Origin: Robertmurraya sp. FSL R5-0851
GTDB taxonomy: Bacteria > Bacillota > Bacilli > Bacillales > Cytobacillaceae
NCBI RefSeq assembly: GCF_038002965.1
Contig: NZ_JBBOOE010000001.1
Coordinates: 1,965,001-2,029,000, forward strand
Length of the DNA: 64,000 bases
Direction of reading: 5' to 3'
The notes below the pieces were generated by a model, which was not told where the DNA came from, made no database searches, and worked only from the letters and a program-made list of their open reading frames with translations. Positions 1-64,000 of this stretch are shown here, in pieces; the first letter of the stretch is position 1; every line of letters begins with the position of its first letter. The translations under genes were made by a program, and so were the position numbers.

Positions 1-462
1 TCCATCTTCAAGAAGGGTTAAGGCATGCTCTCCAATCGCACGACATAGTTCTTCGTCTTCATTACGGATTTCATGTGCTTCTTTTATTAAAGATGCTTTG
101 ATCTCGCTAATTGGTTGAGTTTGCTGTTGTTTGACAAGCTCGTCCAAACGATTTAATGCCCAGAATAGATTGACTGCTGTTGGTCTAGATGAAGCTAAAT
201 AATCTAAATGCTTTTTAAACACTTGATAAAAAGAATCAAAGCTGTCTTCCGGTGCATCTTTTACGGCTAATACCAGTCCGTATGCGGCTGCAATTCCGAT
301 CGCCGGTGCTCCTCTTACCTTTAGTTGTTTAATGGCATCCCATGTATCTTCGACGGATTCAATTTCAATAAATTCAGTAATATGTGGAAGTTTCGTTTGA
401 TCTAAGATATGCAAACGACCTTGGTCGTCAAAAGTAACGGATTGAATAAAGTTAGTAGTCAT
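1..462 (-). CDS. mtnA: S-methyl-5-thioribose-1-phosphate isomerase, N-terminal part (cut by window edge)
   Basis: This is the first 154 codons of MtnA, which isomerises methylthioribose-1-phosphate to the ribulose form in the cytosolic methionine salvage pathway. The start is the ATG at 462-460, preceded by GAGGAG. The fragment holds the family signature VRGAPAIGIAAAYG near residues 50-65, typical of the IF2B-like isomerases that include MtnA. The gene runs off the left edge, so the catalytic Cys and Asp of the C-terminal half cannot be checked. It points away from acnA's promoter and follows the acnA terminator in the same direction. The identity is recognised from the N-terminal motif only; a related IF2B-type sugar isomerase is the main alternative. 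Confidence 0.85.
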   Translation of the reverse strand, partial: MTTNFIQSVTFDDQGRLHILDQTKLPHITEFIEIESVEDTWDAIKQLKVRGAPAIGIAAAYGLVLAVKDAPEDSFDSFYQVFKKHLDYLASSRPTAVNLFWALNRLDELVKQQQTQPISEIKASLIKEAHEIRNEDEELCRAIGEHALTLLEDG

Positions 463-544
463 CTTTTGCTCCTCATAATGTTGTAATTGGTTGCTATTAT
501 ATTTTAACAATATTCTGTATTTGAGCAAACATTTTTTATAAAAA

Positions 545-578
545 AACCGTACAGCCACTAAACGGCTGTACGGTCTTT
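545..578 (-). terminator. acnA intrinsic terminator
   Basis: An 11-bp stem (ACCGTACAGCC with GGCTGTACGGT, 546-574) with a short loop is followed on the minus strand by a T run. It lies just after the acnA stop and separates acnA from mtnA. Confidence 0.85.
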
Positions 579-582
579 TGTA

Positions 583-3291
583 TTAGTTTTGTAGCTTATC
601 ACGAAGAACCATTGGAAGGATTCCACCGTGACGGTAGTAATCAATTTCTACTTCTGAGTCGAAACGAACAAGAACTTCGAATTCTTTCTTGCTTCCGTCT
701 TCAGCAGTAGCCGTAACCTTTAATAGGTCACGTGGTCTTACGTTTTCGTCCACTTGAACGTCAATTGTTTCTTTACCAGTTAGGCCAAGTGTATCAGCGT
801 TTTCTCCATCCTTGAATTGAAGTGGAAGAACACCCATTAATACAAGGTTTGAACGGTGAATACGCTCAAAGCTCTCAGCTAAAACCGTTTTGATTCCAAG
901 AAGGTTTGTACCTTTTGCTGCCCAGTCACGTGAAGAACCCATTCCATAGTCCTTACCTGCTAGAACAATTAGGCCTGTTCCATCTTGCTTATACTTCATA
1001 CATGCATCATAGATAGATGTTACTTCGCCAGTTGGCCAGTAAGTTGTAAATCCACCTTCTGTACCAGGAGCCACTTGGTTACGGATACGGATGTTTGCGA
1101 ATGTTCCGCGCATCATTACTTCGTGGTTACCACGACGAGATCCGTAAGAGTTGAAATCACGAATTTCTACTCCGTTTTCAAGTAGGTATTTTCCAGCAGG
1201 TGTGTTTTTACCAATAGCACCAGCAGGAGAAATATGGTCAGTTGTAACTGAATCTCCGAACTTCGCTACTACTTTTAATCCAGCTAGAGGTTTTACTTCT
1301 TCTGGATCTGGCTTTAAGCCTTCGAAGAACGGTGGGTTTTGGATATATGTTGAAGTATTATCAAACGTATATAAAGAGTCATTGCTAGTTTGGATTTCAT
1401 TCCAACGAGCGTTATCATCAAATACATTTTCATATTCTCTTCTGAATAGTTCAGGTGTAACGGTTTGCTTTACTACTTCATTTACTTCTGCAGTAGTTGG
1501 CCAAATGTCCTTAAAGAATACATCGTTTCCGTTACGATCTTTTCCAATTGCCTCGTTTTGAAGATCGATATCTACTGTACCAGCAAGTGCATAAGCAACA
1601 ACTAGTGGTGGTGATGCTAAGTAGTTACCTTTTACTAGTGGATGAATACGTCCTTCAAAGTTACGGTTACCAGAAAGAACAGATGTAATTAGCAGGTCAT
1701 TTTCTGCCACTGCTTTTTCAATTTCATCCTTAAGGGGTCCTGAGTTACCGATACATGTTGTACATCCGTACCCTACTAGATTGAAGCCTAATTGATCAAG
1801 ATAAGGAAGTAAGCCAGAATCTGAAAGATAACCTGTTACAACCTTTGATCCAGGTGCTAAAGATGTTTTAACGAATTTAGGTACTTCCATACCAAGTTCA
1901 ACAGCTTTTTTCGCCACTAAGCCAGCCCCTACTAATACGTATGGGTTAGAAGTATTTGTACAGCTTGTTATCGCAGCGATTGCTACAGCGCCCGTCTTCA
2001 TTACAGTCGTATCGCCATTGTCAAAAGTAACGGTAACTTCTTTGTCTTTTTCAGACTCTGTTAAACCGAAACCTTGGTTGCCTTGAGGAGCAGTAATCGC
2101 TTCATTGAATTCTTTTTTCATTTGAGATAGTGGAATTAAGTCTTGTGGACGCTTTGGACCAGAAAGGTTCGCTTCAATGTCAGCAAGATTAATTTCAACC
2201 ACATCTGTATAAACAGGATTTAATTCTGGATCGAAGAATAAACCGTTTGCTTGGCAATATGTTTCAACAAGCTTGATTTGCTCTTCAGAACGTCCAGTTA
2301 AACGCATATATTCTAGTGCTTCTCCATCAACTGGGAAGAAACCACAAGTTGCGCCGTACTCAGGAGCCATATTAGCAACCGTTGCACGGTCAGCTAATGG
2401 TAGTGACACCACACCTGGTCCAAAGAATTCAACGAACTTGTTAACTACGCCTTGCTTACGAAGAACTTGTGTTACTTTTAAGGCAAGGTCTGTAGCTGTT
2501 GCACCGTTTGGAAGTTCTCCAATTAATTTAACTCCAACTACTTCAGGAACTGGGAAGTATGAAGGTTGACCAAGCATTCCTGCTTCTGCTTCAATACCAC
2601 CTACACCCCATCCAAGAACACCAATACCGTTGATCATCGTCGTGTGTGAATCTGTTCCTACTAATGTGTCTGGGAACGCTTCAACTTCACCATCGGCATT
2701 TTCGTTTGTTAAAACTACTCCTGCTAAAAACTCAAGGTTTACTTGGTGAACGATACCTGTAGCAGGTGGAACTGCACGGTAGTTATCAAATGCTTTTTGA
2801 GCCCAGCTAAGGAACTGATAACGCTCAGTGTTTCGTTCAAATTCAAGATCCATATTTGCTTGAAGTGCATCAGCTGTTCCGTATTTATCAACCTGTACAG
2901 AGTGGTCAATTACTAGGTCAACTGGTTTTTCAGGGTTAATCTTGTTTGGATCTCCACCTAAATCAGCCATTGCTTTTCTTAATGAAGCTAAGTCAACAAC
3001 TGCTGGTACTCCAGTGAAATCTTGAAGAATAACACGTGAAGGCTTGAAAGGTACATCTACTTCTTTCACTTCACTTGTTCCCCATTTTGCTAAGTTTTCA
3101 ACATGCTCTTTTGTAATAACACGGCCATCATACTGACGAAGTACTGACTCTAGCAATACTTTAATAGAATATGGCAGGTTAGAAACTTTCCCAATTCCTG
3201 CTTCTTCTAAAGCTCCTAAATGATAGTAGTGATAGCGCTTCCCGTCGATTTCAAAGGACTTACGGGATTGGAATACATCTTGATTAGACAT
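583..3291 (-). CDS. acnA: Aconitate hydratase (aconitase A)
   Basis: Aconitase interconverts citrate and isocitrate in the TCA cycle through a [4Fe-4S] cluster. The 902-residue product matches the Bacillus CitB/AcnA length (about 909). Two cluster-ligand stretches are visible: [10 protein letters not shown] and [10 protein letters not shown]. The C-terminal swivel domain carries [17 protein letters not shown] chose the ATG at 3291 (MSNQDVFQ) because a GGGGG ribosome site sits just upstream; an in-frame ATG at 3318 lacks one. Upstream lies a promoter with CcpC-type operator spacing (separate entry), so citrate-responsive repression is likely. The neighbourhood acnA-sspO-sspP-cotM is the Bacillus arrangement, here with selA added. 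In Bacillus the iron-free form also binds RNA; nothing here tests that. Confidence 0.97.
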
Positions 3292-3377
3292 ATGAATTAC
3301 CCCCATTACAATGTTCATATACCAATAGATTGATAGTAGAAAAGTGAATAAAATGAATTTTCTTCAGACTTTTCTTT

Positions 3378-3451
3378 CAATATTATCTTAATACAACCTT
3401 TTACATAAGTAAATAACAAGAAAGTTATTGTTTTTGATAAGTTGTGCTTAT
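3378..3451 (-). promoter_or_regulatory. acnA promoter with CcpC-type dyad and half-site
   Basis: Read on the minus strand, TTTACT (3413-3408) and TAAGAT (3390-3385) are separated by 17 bp, putting +1 near 3378. An ATAA-N7-TTAT dyad (3437-3451) is centred at about -66 and an ATAA half-site (3405-3408) lies at about -27 to -30. These are the positions known for the citrate-responsive LysR repressor CcpC on B. subtilis citB. A second dyad, AATAAC-N6-GTTATT (3412-3429), overlaps the -35. The rest of the 355-bp gap 3292-3646 holds the acnA leader and the sspO promoter region; nothing else was recognised. Confidence 0.6.
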
Positions 3452-3646
3452 GTTATTTTCTATTGCCTTGTTTAGTATCATTGAAATCATGAGTAAATGT
3501 TTGTGGTACTTATGATTCGAACTAAAGAGGCTTGAGGTAAAGCTATGGTGGAAAAATACTGTCCTTATTTTTACTCTAGGAGTTTTGAAAGCTTTATCGG
3601 TATGATCCATATCATTTTGGTGAAAATATCAGTGGAGGTGATAGAA

Positions 3647-3796
3647 ATGGCAAAAAGAAAGGCAAACCATGTAATCCCAACCACGAACGCGGCTAGCGCT
3701 CAAGGAGCTGGCGCAGGTTATAATGAGGAGTTTTCAAACGAACCGTTAACGGAAATGCAAAAGCAAAATAATAAAAAGAGAAAGAAAAATCAATAG
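3647..3796 (+). CDS. sspO: Small acid-soluble spore protein O
   Basis: The 49-residue basic protein begins [10 protein letters not shown] and ends NNKKRKKNQ, with the central motif QGAGAGY. These features match the minor SASP SspO (about 48 residues), a forespore protein made late in sporulation. The start is the ATG at 3647 after GGAGGTG; the longer in-frame upstream reading has no ribosome site and does not match the family. It is divergent from acnA, as in B. subtilis, where sspO and sspP lie together next to the aconitase gene. Here sspP follows 410 bp downstream, separated by a terminator and an opposing small gene. Expression is presumably forespore-specific (sigma G), inferred from the family. 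Confidence 0.93.
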
Positions 3797-3803
3797 AAGA
3801 AAA

Positions 3804-3832
3804 AAGCTGACTCGATTATCTCGGGTCAGCTT
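3804..3832. terminator. Shared terminator between sspO and the 86-residue gene
   Basis: An 8-bp stem AAGCTGAC/GTCAGCTT (3804-3811, 3825-3832) is flanked by an A-rich left side and a T-rich right side, so it can serve the converging genes from both directions. Confidence 0.75.
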
Positions 3833-3839
3833 ATCTATT

Positions 3840-4100
3840 TTACTCCGTCATATTTACTTCTGAAACCATTGATTGTAAATCTTGCTGAAATCTTTCCAGC
3901 TGCGCTCTTTGGGTTTCAGATGCCACCTCGAGTGCATTTTCTATTTGTGCATATGCTTCGTTAACCTCTTTTTTCAAGTGCTTTAACTGATGACCATAAC
4001 TAGCACTGTCTTGTACAATATCGTTATACAGCTCCTGCGCTTCATTTACGCCTTGCTGTGCAGCTAAAAATGCATGTTGTTTATCCTCTTTGTAAGGCAT
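3840..4100 (-). CDS. Small helical protein, possibly DUF2524/YtzC-like
   Basis: This 86-residue, Gln- and Glu-rich protein is predicted to be almost all helical, with heptad-like spacing throughout (LKHLKKEVNEAYAQIENAL, then AQLERFQQDLQSM), which suggests a short coiled-coil. The start is an ATG with GGAGAGG upstream. It sits between the two spore genes sspO and sspP on the opposite strand and shares a terminator with sspO. Its composition and length resemble the small Bacillus DUF2524 (YtzC) proteins, but I cannot confirm membership by eye. No signal peptide, membrane segment or catalytic motif is visible. Function unknown. Confidence 0.7.
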   Translation of the reverse strand: MPYKEDKQHAFLAAQQGVNEAQELYNDIVQDSASYGHQLKHLKKEVNEAYAQIENALEVASETQRAQLERFQQDLQSMVSEVNMTE

Positions 4101-4209
4101 GTAAGCCTCTCCTTTCTTTTTTGCTTGAGGTTAAATTGTGCAGGTAACGATAAAAATATTCGGTATAAAAAATCTTGCGCATTCCATCCTATCAATAGGA
4201 GGGATGAAA

Positions 4210-4356
4210 ATGAACAAAAATGACGGAAAAGACATGCGTAAAAATGCACCAAAAGGTCACAATAACGGTAGCCAACCTGAGCCACTAAGAGGTTCTAAAA
4301 AGGTGAAAAACCGTAACCATACGAGACAGAAGCATAACTCAGGACATGATATGTAA
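4210..4356 (+). CDS. sspP: Small acid-soluble spore protein P
   Basis: The 48-residue product begins [16 protein letters not shown] and ends [16 protein letters not shown], closely matching B. subtilis SspP (also 48 residues), a minor spore-core protein. I chose the second ATG (4210), which lies 6 bp after AGGAGGG; the ATG at 4204 abuts the ribosome site. The gene is followed by a strong hairpin that it shares with the converging selA. In B. subtilis sspP, sspO, cotM and citB are clustered, and the same genes are present here. Confidence 0.93.
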
Positions 4357-4365
4357 AAATTAAAG

Positions 4366-4394
4366 AGCTGTAGGTTACTTCCTACAGCTTTTTT
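4366..4394. terminator. Terminator of sspP, overlapping the selA 3' end
   Basis: A perfect 9-bp stem AGCTGTAGG/CCTACAGCT with a 6-nt loop is followed by TTTTTT on the plus strand. It overlaps the last codons of selA on the other strand. Confidence 0.8.
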
Positions 4395-5812
4395 GACATC
4401 ATCCTATCGATGGAAACTAGTGCATGAATCATCATATCCTCTTCCTCAACTGTCACCGTTCGTAAATCCAGTAGAAGTTCGTCCTTTTGAATCCGTCCCA
4501 CAATAGGAGGGGCATTTTCGGTTCGTAGACAGTTAGCAAGCGTTTCTGCGGACATGGACACACTTTTGATATGAACAATTACTGTAGGAAGCTCGACGTC
4601 TGGCATCGTCCCGCCCCCTACTTGGCTTGTTGCCTCTCTGCTAGTTGCTGTATAGCCACTTGATTGTTGCGTTAGCCGGTCGATAAACTGATCGGTTCGT
4701 ATTTGTAACTCTTTTTTTGTGGCTAGCAAATCTCGTACCACTGGAATGGTTTGAATCGCATCTTTTCCTTTACTATAATCTAGTAAAGTCCCCTCAAGGG
4801 CTGCTAATGTCATCTTATCTACACGCAACACACGAGCAAGTTGATGTTTTTTCAATTGATCAATTAAAACCTTCTTACCGGCAATAATTCCAGCTTGTGG
4901 TCCACCTAGTAGCTTATCTCCGCTAAAAGAAACAATGTCTACTCCTTGTTTAATTACATCAGAAACAACGGGCTCTTCTCCAATTTCGTGTTGACTAAAA
5001 TCGTAAAGTGCACCGCTACCTAAATCCTCGTAAAAAATTATAGACGGATGCTGATTGGCTAGATCCACCAAATCGGAGGTTTCAACTGACTTTGTAAATC
5101 CAATCACTTTAAAATTACTAGTATGTACCTTCATAATCATGGCTGTGTCTTCAGTAACAGCATGTTCAAAATCATACAAATGGGTTTTATTGGTCGTTCC
5201 CACTTCTACGAGCTTTGCCCCGCTTTCTTCCATAATAGATGAAATACGGAAGGAACCTCCTATTTCAACCAATTGTCCTCTAGATACAATCACTTCTTTT
5301 TGAAAGGCTAGTGCACGCAGAATGAGATATACAGCAGCAGCATTGTTGTTAACAACCATGGCCGCTTCAGCACCAGTTAATCGTTTAATCAGTTCTTCTA
5401 CATGAACATGTCTTGAGCCCCTTTCTCCTTCTGCTAACTTGTATTCGAGGTTAGAGTAGTTTTGGGCGGTTTGAATCACATGATCCATAGCGTTTTGGCT
5501 GAGGCGTGCTCTGCCAAGGTTTGTATGTAAAATGGTTCCAGTGGCATTGATGACCCTTTTAATCGTAAATTGATAAGCTTGTGCTAATTCATATTCTGTT
5601 TGTTGAAAGAGTTCCTCTAGAAATGGTTGAGAACCCGGAGTTTCTCCTTCCCAGCAACCATTAAGTAATTGCTCGCGAATGGTACTGACGATATTTTTAA
5701 GAATCGTACTCATTTCAGTTGTGTCAATTCCGTATGTTTGAGTGAGTGTAGAAAAACGAGCATCTCTTTGAAGCTCATGAATCGGTGGTATATATCGTAC
5801 AAACTCCTTCAA
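4382..5812 (-). CDS. selA: L-seryl-tRNA(Sec) selenium transferase
   Basis: SelA converts seryl-tRNA(Sec) to selenocysteyl-tRNA(Sec) using selenophosphate, the last step of Sec synthesis. The 476-residue product has the family length. The PLP-binding Lys lies in SFSGDKLLGGPQAG near residue 300, and the N-terminal tRNA-binding region and RVINATGTILHTNLGRA are also typical. The start is a TTG at 5812 preceded by GGAGGG. The gene lies between sspP and cotM, opposite to both, and breaks the usual spore-gene cluster. Its partners are selD and a SelW-like selenoprotein 1-3 kb away, and selB at the right end of the window. Together these make Sec decoding very likely; selC was not found here. Confidence 0.97.
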   Translation of the reverse strand: MKEFVRYIPPIHELQRDARFSTLTQTYGIDTTEMSTILKNIVSTIREQLLNGCWEGETPGSQPFLEELFQQTEYELAQAYQFTIKRVINATGTILHTNLGRARLSQNAMDHVIQTAQNYSNLEYKLAEGERGSRHVHVEELIKRLTGAEAAMVVNNNAAAVYLILRALAFQKEVIVSRGQLVEIGGSFRISSIMEESGAKLVEVGTTNKTHLYDFEHAVTEDTAMIMKVHTSNFKVIGFTKSVETSDLVDLANQHPSIIFYEDLGSGALYDFSQHEIGEEPVVSDVIKQGVDIVSFSGDKLLGGPQAGIIAGKKVLIDQLKKHQLARVLRVDKMTLAALEGTLLDYSKGKDAIQTIPVVRDLLATKKELQIRTDQFIDRLTQQSSGYTATSREATSQVGGGTMPDVELPTVIVHIKSVSMSAETLANCLRTENAPPIVGRIQKDELLLDLRTVTVEEEDMMIHALVSIDRMMSKKL

Positions 5813-5920
5813 ATGTAACCCTCCAGCCCTTATTTTGCCTGTTTAGTATAACATGTTTCACCGATAGAAAAAATTCTCATACGATAATAACAGTTATCAA
5901 TACATGAGAGGAACACAGCG

Positions 5921-6292
5921 ATGACATCTTCAAAAAAGAATTCTGACTCCCAGTCAATTGACAAATGGTTAGAAACCTTATTTTTGGACCCGCTTACAAC
6001 TTTTTTGGACGAAACTGCCTTTCGCATAGATATATTTGAATCAGGGACTCAGTTTATTATCGAAGCAGATATTCCTAACCCATCCACTGAAACAACCGTT
6101 TCCCTTCAGGAGAATATGGTTGTTATTTCTGTCAATTGTGGCGGAAAGATTCGAACAAGAAAGGTGGATTGGCCATTTGATGTGAGACAACATGAGGTTA
6201 GTGCATACCAAATCGATCAAGTACTAGAGATTACTATTGATAAGGAAAAAACGTTAGCGTCAGTAGATCGTCTAATAGAGATAAAGAGGTAG
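5921..6292 (+). CDS. cotM: Spore outer-coat protein CotM, Hsp20/alpha-crystallin type
   Basis: The 123-residue protein has a short N-terminal stretch and a degenerate alpha-crystallin fold from about residue 40 (FRIDIFESGTQFIIEADIP) to 110. It lacks the usual C-terminal I-x-I tail. Length and position beside sspO/sspP/aconitase match CotM, a sigma K-dependent coat protein that takes part in outer-coat assembly. The start is ATG 5921 after AGAGGAA. It is divergent from selA. The stop codon lies in the loop of its own terminator. The assignment rests on synteny plus fold; sequence identity to CotM is modest, and a generic Hsp20 is the alternative. Confidence 0.8.
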   Translation: MTSSKKNSDSQSIDKWLETLFLDPLTTFLDETAFRIDIFESGTQFIIEADIPNPSTETTVSLQENMVVISVNCGGKIRTRKVDWPFDVRQHEVSAYQIDQVLEITIDKEKTLASVDRLIEIKR

Positions 6293-6306
6293 CCTCTCTT
6301 TTTTTT
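6285..6306 (+). terminator. cotM terminator
   Basis: AGAGG-tag-CCTCT is followed by eight Ts. The cotM stop codon TAG is the hairpin loop. Confidence 0.7.
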
Positions 6307-6309
6307 AAG

Positions 6310-6470
6310 GCTCTTTTCAAAACATTATTGCTATCTACACACTTTTTCGGAAATAAACTATATGTTCAACATCCAATCTTGATTTTATCACCTTAGAAAA
6401 GAGCTACTCTCAAAATAAACCAATAGAACCAGCATTATACGGGGAAAAATCCGGCTTCTAGGATTTTTCC
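6310..6470. repeat. Intergenic inverted-repeat element with internal hairpin
   Basis: Between cotM and the SelW-like gene, GCTCTTTTC (6310-6318) is matched by GAAAAGAGC (6396-6404). A perfect 10-bp hairpin GGAAAAATCC/GGATTTTTCC with an 8-nt loop follows at 6443-6470. No ORF is present. The layout resembles a dispersed Bacillus intergenic repeat or a MITE remnant, but no second copy was seen in this window. Confidence 0.4.
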
Positions 6471-6510
6471 AAAACAACAAACTTTACGAAAACAGCCTTT
6501 TTTAAAATGA

Positions 6511-6536
6511 AAAGCCGCCTTTTACAAGACGGCTTT
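6511..6536 (-). terminator. Terminator after the SelW-like gene
   Basis: AAAGCCG (6511-6517) pairs with CGGCTTT (6530-6536), with further inner pairs, 11 bp past the stop. On the minus strand a T-rich stretch follows. Confidence 0.65.
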
Positions 6537-6546
6537 GTTGCTATAT

Positions 6547-6780
6547 TTAGCTTTCCATTTTAGCAATAATGTCTGGGCTTTTTGGAAATACGCCCGTTTC
6601 AGCTTTAGAATAAATCTTTTCTCCATTTACCGTAACTTCGAAAACCCCACCGGATGAAGGTATGAGCTCTAGTTTTGTAATGTCCTTACGGAAATGATTA
6701 AACAGGTCCTCCGCGAAACTCGCGGCTTTTGGTGCGTAGTTTCACATCATGCAAAATTCAACTTTTACCTCAAAAGACAT
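6547..6780 (-). CDS. SelW-like (Rdx family) selenoprotein, in-frame UGA = Sec13
   Basis: Read with UGA (6744-6742) as Sec, this is a 77-residue protein beginning MSFEVKVEFCMMU. It has the thioredoxin-like CxxU redox motif (Cys10, Sec13) of the SelT/SelW/SelH (Rdx) family and the family's downstream GGVFEVTVNG block. Translation ending at the UGA would give only 12 residues, so the gene is invisible to normal ORF calling. A GGAGG site precedes the ATG. A 6-bp hairpin with a GUU loop starts 16 nt after the UGA (separate entry). The protein is probably a cytosolic thiol/selenol oxidoreductase; its partners are unknown. It lies divergent from selD and near selA, which strongly supports recoding rather than a nonsense mutation. 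Confidence 0.93.
6711..6744 (-). promoter_or_regulatory. bSECIS element of the SelW-like gene
   Basis: After UGA (6744-6742) and 16 nt, CCGCGA-GUU-UCGCGG (6725-6711) forms a perfect 6-bp stem with a 3-nt loop starting in G. The loop begins 22 nt after the UGA, within the 16-37 nt range known for bacterial SECIS elements. SelB should bind it to deliver Sec-tRNA. Confidence 0.8.
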
Positions 6781-6960
6781 TTTCGCTTCCTCCATTTTCA
6801 GCAGAAAGATTTCACAAAACTTTCATTTCTTTGTGATAAAACTATTTTATTACAGGGTTACTAGTTTTTGCAAGGCTACGAAATCTCCTGTCGGAAAACG
6901 ACCAAAAAAGTGCTTTTCCCCCGATTAGGTTGTATACTATTTTATGGAGGTGAGTGATAA

Positions 6961-7998
6961 ATGAGCGAGTTAGAAAACGTACGACTAACTTCCCTTTCTA
7001 CAAAGGCTGGTTGAGGCTGTAAAATTGGTCCTGAGGACTTAGCGCAAGTTTTGCGCCTTTTACCTGAACAAAAAAGAACACCTGAGTTATTAGTGGGACA
7101 TGAAACGTCCGACGATGCAGGGGTGTATCAGTTAACCGATTCAATAGCCATCATTCAAACAATTGATTATTTTACACCAATTGTCGATGACCCATATATG
7201 TTTGGTCAAATTGCAGCTGCTAATGCGTTAAGTGACGTGTACGCCATGGGTGGAACACCGAAAACAGCATTAAATATTGTTGGATATCCTGTTAAGAAGC
7301 TTGGACCTGATATGTTAGCTGAAATTTTAAAAGGTGCAAGCGATAAGGTGGTTGAAGCTGGTGCATTAACAATTGGGGGTCACTCCATTGATGATCAAGA
7401 GCCGAAGTTTGGATTGTCTGTAACGGGTATTGTTGACCCTAACAAAATCTGGAAAAACATTGGTGCTCAGCCGGGTGATGTGCTTGTTTTAACGAAGCCA
7501 ATTGGTGTTGGAATTATGACAACAGGAATTAAGCGTTCGGTAGTAACGAAAGAACAAGAGGAACTTGTTACCTTGCTTATGGCGAAGTTGAACAAGGATG
7601 CATGCGAACACTTGCAGGAATTTTCTCCTCACGCCGTAACGGATGTAACAGGGTTTGGTTTACTTGGTCATGCTAGTGAAATGGCTCGAGGCAGTAGTGT
7701 GAGTCTTGAGATTGACCTTAATCGTGTTCCTGTTCTTGAAGGTACATATGAGTTAGCGGAGCAAGGAATTGTTCCTGGTGGGTCAAAATCTAATCACGAG
7801 TGGCTGAAAAAAGATATTGAATATAATAGTGATATTACTTTACAACAACAGCTCGTCCTATGTGATGCAATAACTTCAGGAGGCTTATTGATTGCTCTTC
7901 CTGAAGAAGAAGCAGAAAAGTATACCTCACTAGATTCCACGTATATCGTTATTGGTCGTGTAATTGAAAAGAAAGACAAGCTTATTTATGTAAAATAA
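6961..7998 (+). CDS. selD: Selenide, water dikinase, Sec-containing (in-frame UGA = Sec18)
   Basis: SelD makes selenophosphate from selenide and ATP, the selenium donor for SelA. A start at ATG 6961 after GGAGGTG gives 345 residues, the usual SelD length. UGA at 7012-7014 falls in STKAGUGCKI, exactly where the family has its catalytic Cys or Sec; Cys20 follows. Further motifs are the ATP/metal-binding TDSIAIIQTIDYFTPIVDDP and DVTGFGLLGHASEMA. A reading that starts after the UGA would lose the catalytic loop. A hairpin 27 nt after the UGA is the presumed SECIS. The gene has its own terminator (8007-8038) and is transcribed divergently from the SelW-like gene. Because SelD needs Sec for itself, its synthesis is self-dependent. 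Confidence 0.97.
7012..7056 (+). promoter_or_regulatory. UGA(Sec) and bSECIS element of selD
   Basis: UGA 7012-7014 is followed after 27 nt by GCGCAA-GUU-UUGCGC (7042-7056), a 6-bp stem with a 3-nt loop. The loop starts 33 nt after the UGA, within the bacterial SECIS range, and has the same GUU sequence as the SelW-like element. Confidence 0.75.
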
Positions 7999-8006
7999 TA
8001 TGCATA

Positions 8007-8038
8007 AAAAGGGTCTGACAACAACGTCAGACCCTTTT
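8007..8038. terminator. Bidirectional terminator between selD and tdh
   Basis: A 13-bp stem AAAAGGGTCTGAC/GTCAGACCCTTTT (8007-8019, 8026-8038) serves the converging selD and tdh genes. Confidence 0.88.
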
Positions 8039-8043
8039 CTACT

Positions 8044-8991
8044 TTAGATCATTTTCTTTCTTAGTTTTTCAAGCATATCAATCGTCATCGTTTCTAAATT
8101 ATACTTAGTTGTAAAGCCCCATTCTTCCTTTGCAGCCGTACAATCAATTGAATCTGGCCAGCTGTCAGCGATCCCTTGTCTAATGGGGTCTACATCATAT
8201 TTCATCGTGAAGTGTGGAATATGCTTTTTTATTTCAGCTGCTATTTCTTCCGGTGCAAAGCTCATAGCTGTCACATTAAAGGAATTTCGATGGATAAGCT
8301 GGGATGAATCCGCTTCCATCAAATCAACAATAGCATTCAAAGCATCCGGCATGTACATCATATCCATGTACGTTCCTTCTTTTATATAAGAGGTATACTG
8401 TCCGAATTTTAGAGCCTTGTAATAGATTTCTACAGCATAATCAGTCGTGCCTCCACCGGGTGCTGTTACGTAAGAAATTAATCCAGGAAAACGGAGACCT
8501 CTCGTATCAACTCCGTAACGATGATAGTAATAATCAGATAATAGCTCACCCACTACCTTATTAACACCGTACATAGTCGTTGGACGATGTATGGTGTCTT
8601 GAGGAGTATTAACTTTCGGAGTCGTTGGACCAAAAGCTCCTATTGAGCTCGGAGTGAAAAACTGACTTTTGGTCTCGCGAGCGGTTTCTAAAGCATTCAT
8701 TAAGCCGCCCATATTTAAATTCCAAGCAAACACAGGGTTTGCTTCTGCTGTTGCTGAAAGAAGCGCGGCCATATGAATAACGGTATCTGTTTTGTGCTTC
8801 TTCGCAACATCAAGCATTCTAGCTCCGTCTGTCACATCTACAATCTCAAAAGGTCCAGCTAAGGCTGCTTCGCTCTCGTTCTTACGAATATCAGTTGCCA
8901 CCACATTGTCGGCACCGTATAATTCTCTTAATTTAACGGTTAACTCTGAACCGATTTGCCCTAATGCCCCCGTTATCAAAATGCGTTTCAT
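8044..8991 (-). CDS. tdh: L-threonine 3-dehydrogenase, short-chain (epimerase-like) type
   Basis: The enzyme oxidises L-threonine with NAD+ to 2-amino-3-ketobutyrate. The 315-residue extended-SDR protein begins with the Rossmann motif GALGQIGS and has the catalytic pair in YGVNK near residue 145. Blocks such as [11 protein letters not shown] and the Tyr/Met-rich [13 protein letters not shown] are typical of epimerase-like threonine dehydrogenases rather than UDP-glucose epimerases. The start is an ATG after GGAGGAG. The gene follows kbl with only 19 bp between them, so the product is handed to glycine C-acetyltransferase. The direct neighbour is what decides between Tdh and another NAD-dependent epimerase. 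Confidence 0.9.
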
Positions 8992-9010
8992 GTTTCTCCT
9001 CCAATTATGC

Positions 9011-10207
9011 TTACTCAGTGATGATTCCTAGCTCTTTCCCTACTCTTTCATAGATGACAAGCGCTTGATCTAGCATCTCCTTTGTATGAGCTGCGGAAGG
9101 CATATTTCTTACTCTTCCCGTCCCTTTTGGTACCGTTGGGAAGACAATCGATTTGGCGTACACACCCTCTTTATACAGACGCTTGCTAAATTCCTGAGTT
9201 TTTACTTCCTCACCGATGATACATGGAGTAATTGGTGTTTCACTGTTTCCGATATTAAAACCTAATTTGACAAGACCTGCTTTTAAATAATTTGCATTTT
9301 CCCAAAGCTTTTCGTTCAGTTCCGAGCTTTCCGTTAACAATTCGACAGCACGAATACTTGCAGCCACATCAGCCGGAGTTAAAGAGGTGGAGAATAAAAA
9401 CGGTCTACTGCGAACCTTCAACCAGTCGATTAAATCTTTCTTCCCTGCCACATATCCGCCGACGACTCCAATGGCTTTTGATAAAGTTCCGATTTGAAGA
9501 TCTACTTTGTCGGATAGTCCAAAGTGTTTAACCGTTCCTGCACCCTTTCCAAGTACACCAGAACCGTGCGCATCATCAACGTACGTAATTAAATCAAACT
9601 CTTCTGCAATTTGAACGATTTCAGGCAGCTTGGCAATGTCACCATCCATGGAAAATACCCCGTCCGTAATTACCATTACTTTATTGTAGAGTCCTGACTC
9701 TGTTGCATCCTTTGCTTTTGCATGAAGATCATCCATGTCTGAATGATTGTAACGAATGATTTTTGCTCGTGATAAGCGGCATCCATCGATAATGGAAGCA
9801 TGGTTTAATTCATCAGAAAGAATCGCATCGTTTTTATCCATAATTCCCGAGATAGCAGCCATATTACAATTAAAGCCTGATTGGTAGGCGATGGCAGCTT
9901 CTGTTTGCTTAAATTGAGCTAATTTCTCCTCAAGTTCTAAGTGAAGCTTTAACGTTCCGTTGATTGTCCGGACAGCTCCCGCTCCTACTCCAAACTGTTG
10001 AATGGCTTCTGTTGCAGCTTCTTTTAGACGAGAATCAGTTGCAAGTCCCAAATAGTTATTAGAGGAAAGATTCACGAGCTCTTCCCCGTTAATTATAATC
10101 ATGGGACCGTTCGCACTTTCTAGTGGGTCGATGACGTTATAAAGACCCTTCCCCTTTAAATCTTCGAGATTTTCAGCTAAAAACGTGGCTAACTTCTTAC
10201 TTGACAT
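9011..10207 (-). CDS. kbl: Glycine C-acetyltransferase (2-amino-3-ketobutyrate CoA ligase)
   Basis: Kbl cleaves 2-amino-3-ketobutyrate with CoA to glycine and acetyl-CoA. The 398-residue product has the family length. The PLP Lys lies in [16 protein letters not shown] near residue 245, and [15 protein letters not shown] and [12 protein letters not shown] mark the alpha-oxoamine synthase family. I chose the ATG at 10207 (MSSKKLATF), which is 9 bp after AGGGGG; the longer reading lacks a ribosome site. It is the first gene of the kbl-tdh operon. Its leader holds a 10-bp inverted repeat that could be a regulatory site. BioF and 5-aminolevulinate synthase are relatives, but the tdh partner settles the role. 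Confidence 0.93.
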
Positions 10208-10549
10208 TCCATTCATCCCCCTTGCAATGTTGTTTCGGAATAAACAACTGTCCACTGGAAAAAGACAGTTGTTATGTAGTTGAATCGTTGAAATATAAAG
10301 GTTTTTATAGTTATTACTTTAGCATATTTTTATACGTTGTGCATAGTGCGTGGACAAATTTCGCCTGAGTTATCTACTCGAAATTGATAATGTATTCCTA
10401 TTACAATAAATCAGTAGTGTAAAACTTAAAATTTTAGTATGATTAGAAAATGAGGTTTTTTATGATTACTTAAATAACGTGAGGAAAATGTATTAGTCAG
10501 GATTGTTATTCTACATAAAAAATATTTATTAAGATTTGGGGGAACTAAA
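10208..10549. promoter_or_regulatory. Divergent kbl / phnD-like intergenic region with inverted repeat
   Basis: This 342-bp AT-rich spacer separates two divergent operons. AACAACTGTC (10243-10252) is matched perfectly by GACAGTTGTT (10264-10273) with 11 bp between, 36-66 bp upstream of the kbl start. It could be an operator or a leader hairpin for kbl-tdh. The phnD-like gene has a clear GGGGG ribosome site. No Pho box, riboswitch or convincing promoter pair was recognised. Confidence 0.5.
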
Positions 10550-11437
10550 ATGAAAAGATTAGTCACTTTTTTTGCGTTTGTTTTACTGCTTGGTCTTCTA
10601 AGCGGTTGTGCGGAGGAGAATAAAGAGACATCTGAACAAGAAGAGACAACAAAGCAAACACTTAAAATTGGTGCGATTCCTGACCAAGATGTTTCGGTTC
10701 TAAGTCGAAGCATGGGCGAAGTGGCAGAATATCTTTCTAATGAGACAGGTTTAGAGGTTGAGTATGTCCCATCCGTAGACTATGCAGCGCTAGTAACGGC
10801 CTTTGAAAGAGGAGAAATTCAATTAGCTTGGTTTGGTGGTTTAACAGGTGTTCAAGCAAGAAGCCTGGTTCCTGACGCGGAAGCTATCGCTCAAAGACCT
10901 CGTGATGAAGAATTCAAATCTGTTTTTATCGCTCAAAAAGAACTTGGATTAACATCGTTAAGTGATTTAAAAGGAAAAAGCTTTACTTTTGGTAGCGAAA
11001 GCTCCACTTCTGGGCATTTAATGCCTCGATATTATTTAATGGAAGAAGGCATTGATGCCGACCAAGATTTTAACGGCAAACCATCTTACTCAGGCTCTCA
11101 CGATAAAACTTATAAGCTAGTAGAATCAGGTGCTTATCAAACGGGTGCTTTAAACGTAGCTGTTTGGGAAGCAGCAGTTGCTGAAGGAAAAGTCGATACA
11201 AACAAGGTGGATGTATTTTATACGACCCCTGCCTACTACGATTATCACTGGACAATTAATACACTTGAAGGATACGATTCTGACGTCAAGCAAAAAATAA
11301 CAGATGCCCTCCTTTCTATGGGTAGTGACCAGCAAACGATTTTGGATCTTTTCCAAACGGATAAGTTTATTGCAACAAAAAATGAAAACTACGAAGCCAT
11401 TGAAAAAGTGGCCAAACAAATCGGTATTATTAAATAG
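10550..11437 (+). CDS. PhnD-family ABC transporter lipoprotein, candidate selenium-oxyanion binder
   Basis: The 295-residue protein has a lipoprotein signal peptide ending LLSGC (Cys at about residue 20), so it is anchored outside the membrane. The mature part is a PhnD-type type-2 periplasmic-binding fold: TLKIGAIPDQDVSVL, VEYVPSVDYAALVTAFERGEIQLAWFGGLTGVQAR and a C-terminal NENYEAIEKVAKQIGII. It forms an operon with an ATPase (10 bp downstream) and a fused permease. The family includes phosphonate and phosphite binders, but there is a PhnD clade associated with selenium genes and annotated as putative selenate binding, whose wording I recall as similar. No C-P lyase genes are present, while selA, selD and a selenoprotein lie 2.5-6 kb away. 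Ligand inferred, not shown. Confidence 0.75.
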   Translation: MKRLVTFFAFVLLLGLLSGCAEENKETSEQEETTKQTLKIGAIPDQDVSVLSRSMGEVAEYLSNETGLEVEYVPSVDYAALVTAFERGEIQLAWFGGLTGVQARSLVPDAEAIAQRPRDEEFKSVFIAQKELGLTSLSDLKGKSFTFGSESSTSGHLMPRYYLMEEGIDADQDFNGKPSYSGSHDKTYKLVESGAYQTGALNVAVWEAAVAEGKVDTNKVDVFYTTPAYYDYHWTINTLEGYDSDVKQKITDALLSMGSDQQTILDLFQTDKFIATKNENYEAIEKVAKQIGIIK

Positions 11438-11447
11438 AGGTGTAGAT

Positions 11448-12206
11448 GTGGAGACCAGTCAAAACATCATCGAATTAAACGATGTATCAGTCTCTTTTGA
11501 CGGGAAGATAGCCTTATCTTCCCTTTCTTTATTGATTAAAAAGGGTGAACGAATTGCCTTAATTGGCCCGAGTGGTGCGGGAAAAAGCACGCTTTTAAAT
11601 GTACTATCTTTGTCAAATGTCAGTGGAACGGGCAACATCATGATTGATGGGCAACCTCCTTCCTTTTATCGTAACCGCAAAGTACGTGCCAAAAAAATTG
11701 GTGTGATTCGTCAGCAGTTCGATTTAGTAAATGCCCTCCCTGTTATACATAACGTTTTAGCTGGGAAACTAGCGGACTGGAGTTTATTTAGATCTGTTCT
11801 TTCCCTAGTGATTCCTCAAGAAAAGATAATGGCCGAACAAGCACTCTCACGAGTAGGTTTGGGTCACAAAATTCTTGAGCAAACCGGCTCATTGTCTGGT
11901 GGTGAGCAGCAGCGTGTGGCATTTGCCAGATTGCTCGTGCAACAGCCTGAAATTATACTAGCAGATGAACCGGTGGCCTCTCTCGATCCTGCTCGAGCCG
12001 AAGATGTGTTAGGCATATTGACAAAGCTTGTTCAAGAAGAAAATCAAACACTGATTACAAGCCTTCATTCCGTCGATTATGCAAAAAAGTACTTTACTAG
12101 AGTCATTGGACTAAGAGAAGGTGGAATGGTTTTCGATCTTCCTGTTGACCAATTAACAGATCGTCACCTCAAAGAGTTATACAAATTGAGGGAGACGAGC
12201 GAATGA
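11448..12206 (+). CDS. PhnC-family ABC transporter ATPase
   Basis: This is the 252-residue ATP-binding subunit of the PhnDCE-type importer. Walker A is GPSGAGKST, the signature is LSGGEQQRVAFARLL, Walker B is IILADEPVASLD and the H-loop is in ITSLHSVDYA. The start is GTG 11448, 6 bp after TAGAGGTG; a much longer reading overlaps the preceding gene and is not supported. The last 4 bp overlap the permease start (ATGA), indicating translational coupling. It acts at the inner face of the membrane with the fused permease below. Confidence 0.88.
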   Translation: METSQNIIELNDVSVSFDGKIALSSLSLLIKKGERIALIGPSGAGKSTLLNVLSLSNVSGTGNIMIDGQPPSFYRNRKVRAKKIGVIRQQFDLVNALPVIHNVLAGKLADWSLFRSVLSLVIPQEKIMAEQALSRVGLGHKILEQTGSLSGGEQQRVAFARLLVQQPEIILADEPVASLDPARAEDVLGILTKLVQEENQTLITSLHSVDYAKKYFTRVIGLREGGMVFDLPVDQLTDRHLKELYKLRETSE

Positions 12207-13822
12207 AACAGAGTCTCCGATTTCAACAAAAAAACCTTCTCACTATTATTTTAGTCCTTGTGTTTTTATGGAGCTTACATGTGATTGATTGGAAGGAGCC
12301 ACTTCTTCATCCGGGTGGAGGTGCCACCTTCCTCCAGATCATTGAGGCGATAATACACCCTGATCTTTCCCCAGAGATTCTTCTTCTTGCCCTTAATTCT
12401 GCTTGGTTGACGATTACCTATGCAGTGGCAGGAATGACAATTGCCATCGTGATTGCTGTTGTTTTTGGGGTTCTGGCTTCAGGTGTATTACAAAGCTCTC
12501 AGAAGCCTTTTTCTTCATTGAGTAAAAGCTTTTTTCGAGCAATTCTTGGTTTCCTTCGTGCTATTCATGAGCTGGTTTGGGCATTGCTGTTTGTAGCTGC
12601 TTTCGGTTTAACGCCTTACTCTGCTATTTTGGCTATCGCCATTCCTTATGGAGGCATTCTAGGGAGAATCTTCGCTGATATGCTGTCAGATGTAAATAAT
12701 GAACCGATACAATCGTTACAGTCAACAGGTGCGTCTAGGTGGCAACTGTTATTTTACGGCTATATTCCACTGGTAAAAGCAAATATGATTTCATATACCA
12801 TGTACCGTTTTGAATGTGCGGTTCGTTCCTCTGCGGTCATGAGCTTTGTTGGCTTAGGGGGACTTGGATATCAGATCCAGCTTTCATTGGATGATCTAAA
12901 TTACGAAGAAGTGTGGACGTTTGTATTATTTTTGATGGCCATTGTAATCGTCATAGATGGATGGAGCAGTCAATGGCGTTCTCGTTTAGCGAAACGCTCG
13001 TCACGCTTTTCCCTGCTATCATTTTTCATATCCTTTGCCTTAGTAGTTGGATCATGGATGTATTTGTATGTAGTCGAGCATGCCTCTTTATTCACTTTGT
13101 TTACAGACGAAAATGGTCAGTATGCGAAAAAGTTCTTCTTAAGCTTACTTGGAGTTGGCGAAGAGTCTCCGGCCTTTTTTTCGGCTCAAAGCTGGCTTCC
13201 TATTCTGCAGCTGACTTATGATACGCTCATGATGAGTATTATGGCTATTGGGATAGCAACGATCGTTATGCTGATCACAGTTGTACCTGCTGCCCGTAAC
13301 GTAGCGAATGGAAAGCTAACGATGAGTCGTTCCCCTTTTCATTGGGTATCTTTCCTACTCATACGCTCGTCCTATATTTTGAGTAGAGCGGTACCGGAAC
13401 TGATTTGGGCTATGATGATCATCTTTATTTTCCAGCCGGGTATTCTTCCTGGGGCTGTTGCACTAGCCCTTCATAACTTTGGTATACTTGGAAAGCTATG
13501 TGCTGAAGTTATTGAAGATCTTGATGAAAGGCCTATTCGGCATCTTTCTTCTTCAGGTGCGAGTCACGCACAAATCTTATTGTATGGTGTTCTTCCCTCC
13601 GTTCTTCCGAAGTTTTTAAGCTTTATCCTCTATCGTTGGGAAGTAATCATGAGAACAACGATTGTTGTAGGTTTTGTTGGAGCGGGAGGGCTTGGTCAGC
13701 AGTTCAAGCTTAGCATGAGTTATTTCCATTATTCAGATATCACATTGATTATTTTTTGTTATTTATTGCTTGTTTGGTTGGCGGACTTTTTATCTGAGCT
13801 TTCTCGTAAAATAGCCAAATGA
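12203..13822 (+). CDS. Fused PhnE-PhnE-type ABC permease
   Basis: The 539-residue membrane protein is two PhnE-like permease domains in tandem (about residues 1-265 and 270-539). Each half has around six membrane segments and an ATPase-contact loop: STGASRWQLLFYGYIPLVKANMI in the first, SSGASHAQILLYGVLPSVLPKFL in the second. Each half also repeats the FVGxGGLGxQ block. Most PhnE systems use separate homodimeric or paired subunits, so this is a gene fusion. It is the third gene of the importer operon and overlaps the ATPase gene by 4 bp. Substrate is probably a small oxyanion; see the binding protein entry for the selenium hypothesis. Confidence 0.88.
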   Translation: MKQSLRFQQKNLLTIILVLVFLWSLHVIDWKEPLLHPGGGATFLQIIEAIIHPDLSPEILLLALNSAWLTITYAVAGMTIAIVIAVVFGVLASGVLQSSQKPFSSLSKSFFRAILGFLRAIHELVWALLFVAAFGLTPYSAILAIAIPYGGILGRIFADMLSDVNNEPIQSLQSTGASRWQLLFYGYIPLVKANMISYTMYRFECAVRSSAVMSFVGLGGLGYQIQLSLDDLNYEEVWTFVLFLMAIVIVIDGWSSQWRSRLAKRSSRFSLLSFFISFALVVGSWMYLYVVEHASLFTLFTDENGQYAKKFFLSLLGVGEESPAFFSAQSWLPILQLTYDTLMMSIMAIGIATIVMLITVVPAARNVANGKLTMSRSPFHWVSFLLIRSSYILSRAVPELIWAMMIIFIFQPGILPGAVALALHNFGILGKLCAEVIEDLDERPIRHLSSSGASHAQILLYGVLPSVLPKFLSFILYRWEVIMRTTIVVGFVGAGGLGQQFKLSMSYFHYSDITLIIFCYLLLVWLADFLSELSRKIAK

Positions 13823-13831
13823 TAGAAACTT

Positions 13832-13862
13832 GAGTACCTCTTTTTTAGGCGGTGCTCTTTCT
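13832..13862 (+). terminator. Weak terminator after the importer operon
   Basis: GAGTACC (13832-13838) pairs with GGTGCTC (13851-13857), one G-U pair, followed by TTTCTTT, 10 bp after the permease stop. Confidence 0.5.
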
Positions 13863-13972
13863 TTATGCCAATAATAGCAAACATTAACATTCATTAGGAA
13901 AAGCGAGTATGTTTTTTCATAAATTTACAAACAATACCATTATCGATACTTTCGAAATGGAGGATTAGTATA

Positions 13973-14773
13973 GTGAGAAAATTAAGTGCGCTTATCTTCT
14001 TCGGTCTTATTTTTTCGCAATGGGGAATTCTGAACGCCCATGCTGCTGTGACGGATACGGAGGTTAATGAAATATTATCAGACTACGATTTATCAAGAGA
14101 AGAACTTGATGTGATTTTGTCCGAGTATGGTACAACGGTTGAGGAACATGAGTCAAAGCAAGAATTAGCAGATGCGGTGGATTTTTATTTAAATCACCTC
14201 TCAGTATTAAAGGATCTAGAAGAATTTCTAGCGTCGATTGGCATTTCAGAGGAAGAAGCTGATCAACTGTTTGCACACCTCGAGAAAATCGATTCAGATG
14301 ATATGCAACATCAAATGGTGACCATCGATACAAGAATAGAGGAAATCATGATGGCTTCTGATTCAGAGTTTACAGATGCTGAAAAAGAGGAGCTTTCCTC
14401 CCTGTTTGCTAAGATGATGGACGCCATGCAGGTAGTTCCGACTTTTTATTTAGTCGACTCTGCTGGAGCTCAAACAGCTATATCATATGAAGAGCTATTA
14501 CAGGCGAATGAATTTACAAGTGACGGTCTCCTTGTACAACTGCATAGTTTAAGTGGTGAGCTGCTCGCAGATGTTGAGCTAACCCATGCCATGCTTTCAG
14601 GGGATTTTGTTTTGAGTGCTTTTGAAAAAGTCGCAGATGTTGGGGAACTAGTGGCACAGCTTCCTGATACAGCAAGCTTTTATGGAACGGGAATCCTGCT
14701 GGGTCTCATTCTAGCCTTTTCTGGACTGGGTCTTTTCTTGATACGAAAGAAAACCCTATCGGCAATAAAATAA
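13973..14773 (+). CDS. Acidic surface protein with LPDTA sorting signal
   Basis: The 266-residue protein has an N-terminal signal peptide (about residues 1-25, ending HAHAA), a strongly acidic helical body rich in Glu and Asp, and a C-terminal sorting signal: LPDTA near residue 230, a hydrophobic span and a short tail RKKTLSAIK. This layout matches the Bacillaceae family of processed acidic surface proteins that are paired with a class D sortase recognising LPxTA. The start is GTG 13973 after TGGAGG. The sortase gene begins in the stop codon of this gene (1-bp overlap), so the two are co-translated and the protein is very likely its substrate. The role of the anchored protein is unknown; it has no catalytic motif that I can see. 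Confidence 0.87.
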   Translation: MRKLSALIFFGLIFSQWGILNAHAAVTDTEVNEILSDYDLSREELDVILSEYGTTVEEHESKQELADAVDFYLNHLSVLKDLEEFLASIGISEEEADQLFAHLEKIDSDDMQHQMVTIDTRIEEIMMASDSEFTDAEKEELSSLFAKMMDAMQVVPTFYLVDSAGAQTAISYEELLQANEFTSDGLLVQLHSLSGELLADVELTHAMLSGDFVLSAFEKVADVGELVAQLPDTASFYGTGILLGLILAFSGLGLFLIRKKTLSAIK

Positions 14774-63061: not shown

Positions 63062-64000
63062 TTATAACCACACTCGCATGTTTTCAACTCGTTTTGTGAT
63101 TTGGTTCTCATCTAATCGCTCTAAAAAAGGAATCATGTATTTCCTTGATAATCCGAGTATTTCTTTTGCTTTCCCTACATCAAACTCTATATTCGTTTCA
63201 GCTTTAAGCCTATTCACTGCTTCTGTAAAAACCTCTCCATGATAGTAATAGGATTCGTCAAGAGAAATAATCATTTCTCGTTCGATCCAATATCTTTTAA
63301 CGTCCTCGACTAAGGCGTCTGGAATTCCCGCTCCTTTAATATATTCCTGTAAATATTTTACTTGAAGACCATCTCTTTTTAAATCATTTAATAGGTTGTC
63401 TGTTCGTTTCATCCAACTAGGCGGAACATGAGGAGTAAAAGAGGATAAGGAAACAAATTGTCCCTTTCTCTGAAACAGATTCGTAGCAGACCCTTGTTCA
63501 ATTACATATTCGACTAACGACTTCGGATACCATTTTTGTAAGCCTTGTAGGAGCTCGGCTTTATTGACCCCATTGCGTAGTGGGAACTGGTTATGGTAGT
63601 CATTTAAACGATCGAACAATTCTTCCTCAACATCCTTAATGATGGCTTGTAGGGTGTATTCCTTGCTAGAGTAGTGGATAAATTCTTCCCCAGCAAGAGC
63701 AAGAGAAACTTCCTCCTGATCGAGAGAGGTCCGCTTAATGAGTTCATCGATGGACAAACTCTTGGCCTCGATTAACGCGGCAGTTAAGCGTTCGGCCGGT
63801 GACCCTTCTTTCTTTTTCGCCAACTCTTCAATCGTTTGATGTCCGAAACGGTACTTCTCACCTTTAGGATCGATAACCCAGCCCCCGCCGATCGTTTCCT
63901 GTGGGCTAGGTCTGCGTAAAATAAAACGATCTCCACGCTTTGTGACGATTTCCTCCTCGAGTCTTAATTGACAAAGGATTTCCCCACTTTCAGCTTTCAG
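63062..64000 (-). CDS. selB: Selenocysteine-specific elongation factor, C-terminal part (cut by window edge)
   Basis: SelB brings selenocysteyl-tRNA(Sec) to UGA codons that carry a SECIS hairpin. This is the last 312 codons; the GTPase domain lies beyond the right edge. The fragment starts in domain III with RRPSPQETIGGGWVIDP, a SelB hallmark, and continues through the winged-helix repeats that bind SECIS RNA, ending RKYMIPFLERLDENQITKRVENMRVWL. Its targets in this window would be the hairpins in selD and the SelW-like gene. The RsbR-like gene follows 53 bp downstream in the same direction. selA is 57 kb away in this window. Confidence 0.95.
   Translation of the reverse strand: MKAESGEILCQLRLEEEIVTKRGDRFILRRPSPQETIGGGWVIDPKGEKYRFGHQTIEELAKKKEGSPAERLTAALIEAKSLSIDELIKRTSLDQEEVSLALAGEEFIHYSSKEYTLQAIIKDVEEELFDRLNDYHNQFPLRNGVNKAELLQGLQKWYPKSLVEYVIEQGSATNLFQRKGQFVSLSSFTPHVPPSWMKRTDNLLNDLKRDGLQVKYLQEYIKGAGIPDALVEDVKRYWIEREMIISLDESYYYHGEVFTEAVNRLKAETNIEFDVGKAKEILGLSRKYMIPFLERLDENQITKRVENMRVWL

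Follow-up and report, generated by a model that had tools for sequence, protein, structure and literature searches.

Several surveys list SelW-like proteins as a family of bacterial selenoproteins (PMC1088965, PMC1794560, PMC2398784, PMC13188914). SECIS elements of bacteria lie just downstream of the UGA codon, unlike those of eukaryotes, which sit in 3' UTRs (PMC1088965). Few or no Cys homologues of SelW-like proteins are reported from organisms that use selenocysteine (Sec), and three selenoproteins were counted for Bacillales in 2006 (both PMC1794560). Another survey, with more than 5200 organisms analysed, gives the SelW-like family in 35 organisms (PMC5029168). According to PMC13188914, the most widespread bacterial selenoprotein is Sec-type FdhA; the SelW-like reference accession in that work is AOH51717.1, a protein that might come from a Bacillus relative. 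Among the matches listed in a search of open papers on SelW or Sec in Bacillus or Bacillaceae, there was no paper on a selW gene or on its breadth in these bacteria.

Here we describe another member of this known family, encoded on a stretch of 64,000 nucleotides from Robertmurraya sp. FSL R5-0851 (contig NZ_JBBOOE010000001.1, positions 1,965,001 to 2,029,000; hereafter the window). The gene, called selW below, has the family (Rdx, PF10262), the CxxU motif, the UGA codon and a SECIS-like element just downstream in common with the bacterial SelW-like selenoproteins, and is set apart from those listed in that it was missed by ordinary ORF calling and adjoins selA and selD. New are this overlooked member itself, the covariation in its RNA and the breadth of such genes among Bacillus relatives.

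Gene structure and genomic context

The original prediction was of a hidden minus-strand frame of 77 codons with one UGA at codon 13, missed by standard ORF calling, encoding a CxxU motif (Cys10-Met-Met-Sec13) followed by a GGVFEV block, and located next to selD and selA. All of this was borne out (Table 1). Translation with TGA read as U gave exactly one in-frame UGA ahead of the TAA, motif and block were both present, and no such frame occurred among the ORFs of 60 aa or more that were called with table 11 for window positions 1-14000. The neighbours were recognised by their matches to TIGR00474 and TIGR00476. Cys10 is the sole Cys of the product. A second in-frame ATG at 6795 overlaps the GGAGGA of the gene. 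This ribosome binding site, the promoter-like match and the terminator-like hairpin suggest that selW may be transcribed on its own, divergently from selD. A small Hsp20-like gene (5921-6292) separates selW from selA and is encoded on the plus strand; Pfam gave no match for it at 1e-3.

The selD gene likewise contains an in-frame UGA; ordinary ORF calling places the start at TTG 7051, with loss of the UGA-bearing segment. A tRNA-Sec with anticodon UCA is encoded elsewhere in the genome, which thus holds selA, selB, selD and tRNA-Sec, the full set expected for a bacterial selenoprotein gene.

Table 1. Features of the selW locus and of the Sec machinery in the window
Feature	Position	Strand	Remarks
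selA, L-seryl-tRNA(Sec) selenium transferase	4382..5812	-	TIGR00474 4.2e-168, 559.9 bits vs cut-off 267.9
Intrinsic-terminator-like hairpin after selW	6511..6536	-	11 pairs and T-rich tail; consensus match only
selW-like gene	6547..6780	-	77 codons and TAA, UGA at codon 13; 234 bases
bSECIS-like hairpin of selW	6711..6725	-	CCGCG-AGUUU-CGCGG; 5 bp; loop starts 21 nt after UGA
In-frame UGA of selW (Sec13)	6742..6744	-	motif C10-M-M-U13
Shine-Dalgarno-like GGAGGA	6788..6793	-	ends 7 nt before ATG 6780; read from sequence
Promoter-like site upstream of selW	6844..6873	-	9/12 positions; consensus match only
selD	6961..7998	+	TIGR00476 1.6e-112 (scored from the TTG-7051 form); AIRS domains
In-frame UGA of selD	7012-7014	+	codon 18 (GUGCK)
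bSECIS-like hairpin of selD	7042..7056	+	GCGCA-AGUUU-UGCGC; AGUUU loop as in selW
selB, cut by the window end	63068..64000	-	genome C1:2028068-2029924; TIGR00475 368 bits vs cut-off 242.25

Family assignment and predicted fold

Protein searches were carried out with Cys in place of Sec. A search of the 77-residue product against Rdx-family proteins had been proposed as a check, and the product matched both Pfam Rdx (8.8e-21, 74.3 bits vs a cut-off of 22.6) and TIGR02174 (60.5 bits, cut-off 34.2). It also carries near its N terminus the CxxC/CxxU motif that marks members of the Rdx or SelT-SelW-SelH family. The best NCBIfam match was NF041051 SelTWH_Campy, where its 82 bits lay below the equivalog cut-off of 88, and selW was not filed as a member of that group. 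Rdx proteins of known structure were found by phmmer at 7.9e-12 to 4.8e-9; their identity to the selW product, from the structural comparison below, was 25-35%.

An AlphaFold model built from 50 aligned sequences, with Cys for Sec and with W at this position in nearly all aligned rows, predicted a thioredoxin-like fold (mean pLDDT 92.5). The best solved match of this model in Foldseek was 2fa8, a SelW-related protein (E 1.4e-8, TM 0.91), and the best chains (2fa8, 2obk, 2oka, 2p0g and 3dex), all Rdx structures that share the fold of the model, were found at E 1.4e-8 to 1.1e-7 and TM 0.86-0.92. All 21 matches shown at E <= 0.001 were chains of Rdx-family entries, with thioredoxins weaker and behind. 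Both alignments examined, those with 2fa8 and 3dex, show a Cys where selW has Sec. Mouse SelW, which carries CxxU, was matched with a Foldseek probability of 1.00 (2npb), but more weakly (E 4.4e-3, TM 0.67, 26% identity).

Conservation of the UGA codon

A contig scan for relatives yielded 291 loci, of which the best 80 were kept and aligned with the window (81 rows). These 80 include Robertmurraya, Cytobacillus, Neobacillus, Peribacillus, Mesobacillus and Fictibacillus, the closest two being from Robertmurraya korlensis (95 and 97%). Homologues lacking both Cys and Sec at position 13 had been named as what would speak against a selenoprotein; instead, codon 13 was TGA in 81/81 DNA loci (window and best 80 of 291), an agreement that is partly due to selection since the 80 loci were chosen as the most query-like. 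Cys10, Asn14, Pro17, Gly44, Gly45, Phe47 and Glu48 were invariant in all 81 rows.

In the stored DNA around the 80 loci (up to 6 kb on each side) we found selA at 78 and selD at 70, and further aconitase at 67, the Hsp20-like gene at 55 and selB at 18, with some loci cut by contig ends. The UGA of selD was TGA in the window and in all 70 related loci holding the gene (68 recognised by pattern, plus L092 and L097).

A bSECIS-like hairpin downstream of the UGA

If the T of the UGA is numbered 0, bases 19-23 of the selW hairpin pair with bases 29-33 and enclose a loop at 24-28, and the element satisfies the bSECIS constraints as printed in PMC13188914. Loop positions G25 and U28 were invariant in the 81 rows. 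Pair 20-32 was C-G in 57/81 rows, U-A in 22/81 and U-G in 2/81; its bases are the third positions of two alanine codons and, judged from the alignment, this is synonymous covariation beyond what selection on the protein explains. Pair 22-30 was CG in 79/81 rows, UA in one (L067, where two amino acids change together) and disrupted in another (L059). Among 74 distinct rows, pairing was kept in 99.7% of cells and two pairs had changed on both sides. Cells changed on both sides numbered 22 vs a shuffled mean of 6.6, a value reached by none of 500 shuffles, and sliding the hairpin by 1-3 columns left 20-59% paired. Because the shuffles are blind to kinship, the changes were placed in addition on a quick tree built from 78 SelA sequences. 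They numbered 9 and 8, and 6 independent pairs on supported branches comprised 5 to 6 concordant and 0 opposite cases, which is borderline in a sign test (0.03-0.06); six control site pairs showed no trend. In the selD hairpin, pair 35-39 was G-C instead of A-U in 8/81 rows, one of them doubtful.

Folding gave -9.3 kcal/mol for the selW hairpin as a 29-nt piece; a 61-nt piece around it preferred a different fold (-15.5 kcal/mol), and the shuffle z-scores were only -1.4 and -1.6. No Rfam match at gathering scores was obtained anywhere in the window. As an estimate of the chance level, 13 of the 2430 TGA triplets in the window (both strands) had a comparable hairpin downstream, with a loop motif that had been defined after seeing the selenoprotein-candidate elements. 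A long in-frame stretch followed at only two of these 13 sites, those of selW (6744; 64 codons) and selD (7012; 327 codons), and the other eleven had 0-25 codons. Such a hairpin was absent after all 17 TGAs at the ends of stop-to-stop frames with 100 codons or more, some of which are not genes.

Distribution in the order and phylum

An Rdx match was found in 165 of the 397 genomes of the order, each with one TGA. This count is independent of the choice of the best 80 loci and scores one TGA per match rather than the codon number. The original prediction had described SelW-like selenoproteins as not common in Bacillus, which is misleading in view of this share of the order, even though the B. 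subtilis control genome had no Rdx match. The 35 organisms of PMC5029168 are not directly comparable with our count because the sampling differs. In the phylum, 299 genomes gave 23 matches, 21 of them with one TGA, one with none (a 320-residue frame) and one partial.

The selB gene scored above its cut-off in 179 of the 397 genomes. Both selW and selB were present in 164 genomes, selW only in 1 (G203, an assembly of 480 contigs), selB only in 15 and neither in 217, an association with a Fisher probability of about 1e-92 when kinship is ignored. Sec-type FdhA was encoded in 6 of 35 chosen genomes with selB or SelW, namely in 5/20 with SelW and in 1/15 with selB and without SelW; the other 14 of these 15 lacked it at the threshold used. 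The selB region was fetched for 11 of these 15 genomes (L106-L116), and all 11 have a UGA-bearing selD.

Further UGA-containing genes in the genome

Searches of the Robertmurraya genome for other UGA genes showed that 3 of its 16 AhpC-TSA matches contain TGA. One (L117:1273-1833, plus strand; UGA 1447, genome C1 719946) is of the peroxiredoxin type (AhpC-TSA 1e-34) and has its UGA at the peroxidatic position (TPVU), with a GGUC-loop hairpin. Another (L118:958-1473, plus strand; UGA 1126, genome C1 2110125) resembles a lipoprotein of the peroxiredoxin/thioredoxin type (AhpC-TSA 3e-12) and has a UxxC motif (UTHC), with a GGUUC-loop hairpin of 6 bp. Both have the UGA at the active site and are candidate selenoproteins. 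The third, also of the AhpC-TSA type (L119; UGA 850, genome C1 2268349), has a tandem of TAG and UGA at the active site and an AGGUU-loop hairpin downstream, and looks like a decayed selenoprotein gene. Downstream of the UGA, these three genes, selW and selD share one type of hairpin, whose motif was set after seeing them. The three FdhA copies of the genome above E 1e-120 contained no TGA, and searches with PF02627 and PF00085 revealed no additional TGA gene. A selenoproteome made up of SelW, together with SelD, and nothing else was rejected at the level of prediction, since the two further candidate UGA genes indicate that SelW would not be the only client of the Sec machinery.

Decoding of the UGA codon

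From the sequence evidence, assignment to the Rdx family and decoding of the UGA as Sec appear almost certain, and selW is very probably a genuine SelW-like selenoprotein gene. The public entries of its relatives would at first sight allow other readings. Among 85 database proteins, W stood at the Sec position in 46 and Cys in one (P0052), and the motif was missing in 38, of which 37 had no more than 70 residues. So many short pieces without the motif would be expected if the gene were a pseudogene, or if codon 13 were a Cys codon misread in sequencing. Such an origin is improbable in the extreme, given a TGA at codon 13 of every aligned locus across many species, one TGA in each order genome with a match, and a protein that is conserved on either side of the UGA. 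The entries with W would in turn fit decoding of the UGA as tryptophan, or a read-through in which selenium plays no part. We consider this very improbable as well: TGA is an ordinary stop here and ends 2 of 10 window genes checked, the complete Sec machinery including tRNA-Sec(UCA) is present, the hairpin covaries, and Cys takes this position in P0052 as well as in 2fa8 and 3dex, the solved relatives whose alignments were examined. The W of the database entries apparently stems from gene callers that called the UGA tryptophan.

Possible function of the SelW-like protein

By analogy with its family, the selW product is most likely a thioredoxin-fold redox protein, with peroxide or mixed-disulfide repair as its most likely role. 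SelB carrying Sec-tRNA-Sec would bind the hairpin and insert Sec at UGA13, which would give a 77-residue protein with a predicted mass of about 8.6 kDa. As in related proteins, the Sec13 selenolate on the thioredoxin-like fold would then attack the substrate, and Cys10, the sole Cys present, would resolve it as a C10-U13 selenenylsulfide. Reduction of the latter might be achieved by a low-molecular thiol (bacillithiol) or by thioredoxin. We regard the C10-U13 redox cycle as reasonably probable and any named reductant as doubtful; bacillithiol is suggested only because it is in use in these bacteria.

The proximity of selW to selA and selD in most of the 80 loci, and the close tracking of selB by selW, could also mean that the product serves SelD or SelA as a selenium carrier or helper, which would account for the cluster, and has no general redox role. 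We consider this unlikely, since the machinery seems able to dispense with selW in the 15 of 179 selB genomes that lack it, where every selD fetched still bears its UGA, and clustering would also fit with co-transfer or with co-regulation of a main client. A SelW-like protein was present in 164/179 selB genomes, Sec-type FdhA in 6/35 genomes checked. As a tentative reading, this order of Bacillus relatives might have retained Sec decoding chiefly for the sake of its SelW-like protein, perhaps a redox protein that depends on bacillithiol and has a central place in their selenium use.

Ordinary gene calling misses selW, and the public entries of its relatives are in many cases fragments or show W in place of Sec. 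If the order-wide count holds, Sec decoding in these bacilli usually serves SelW-like proteins and not formate dehydrogenase, and they would then offer simple, culturable hosts for the study of bacterial SelW function.
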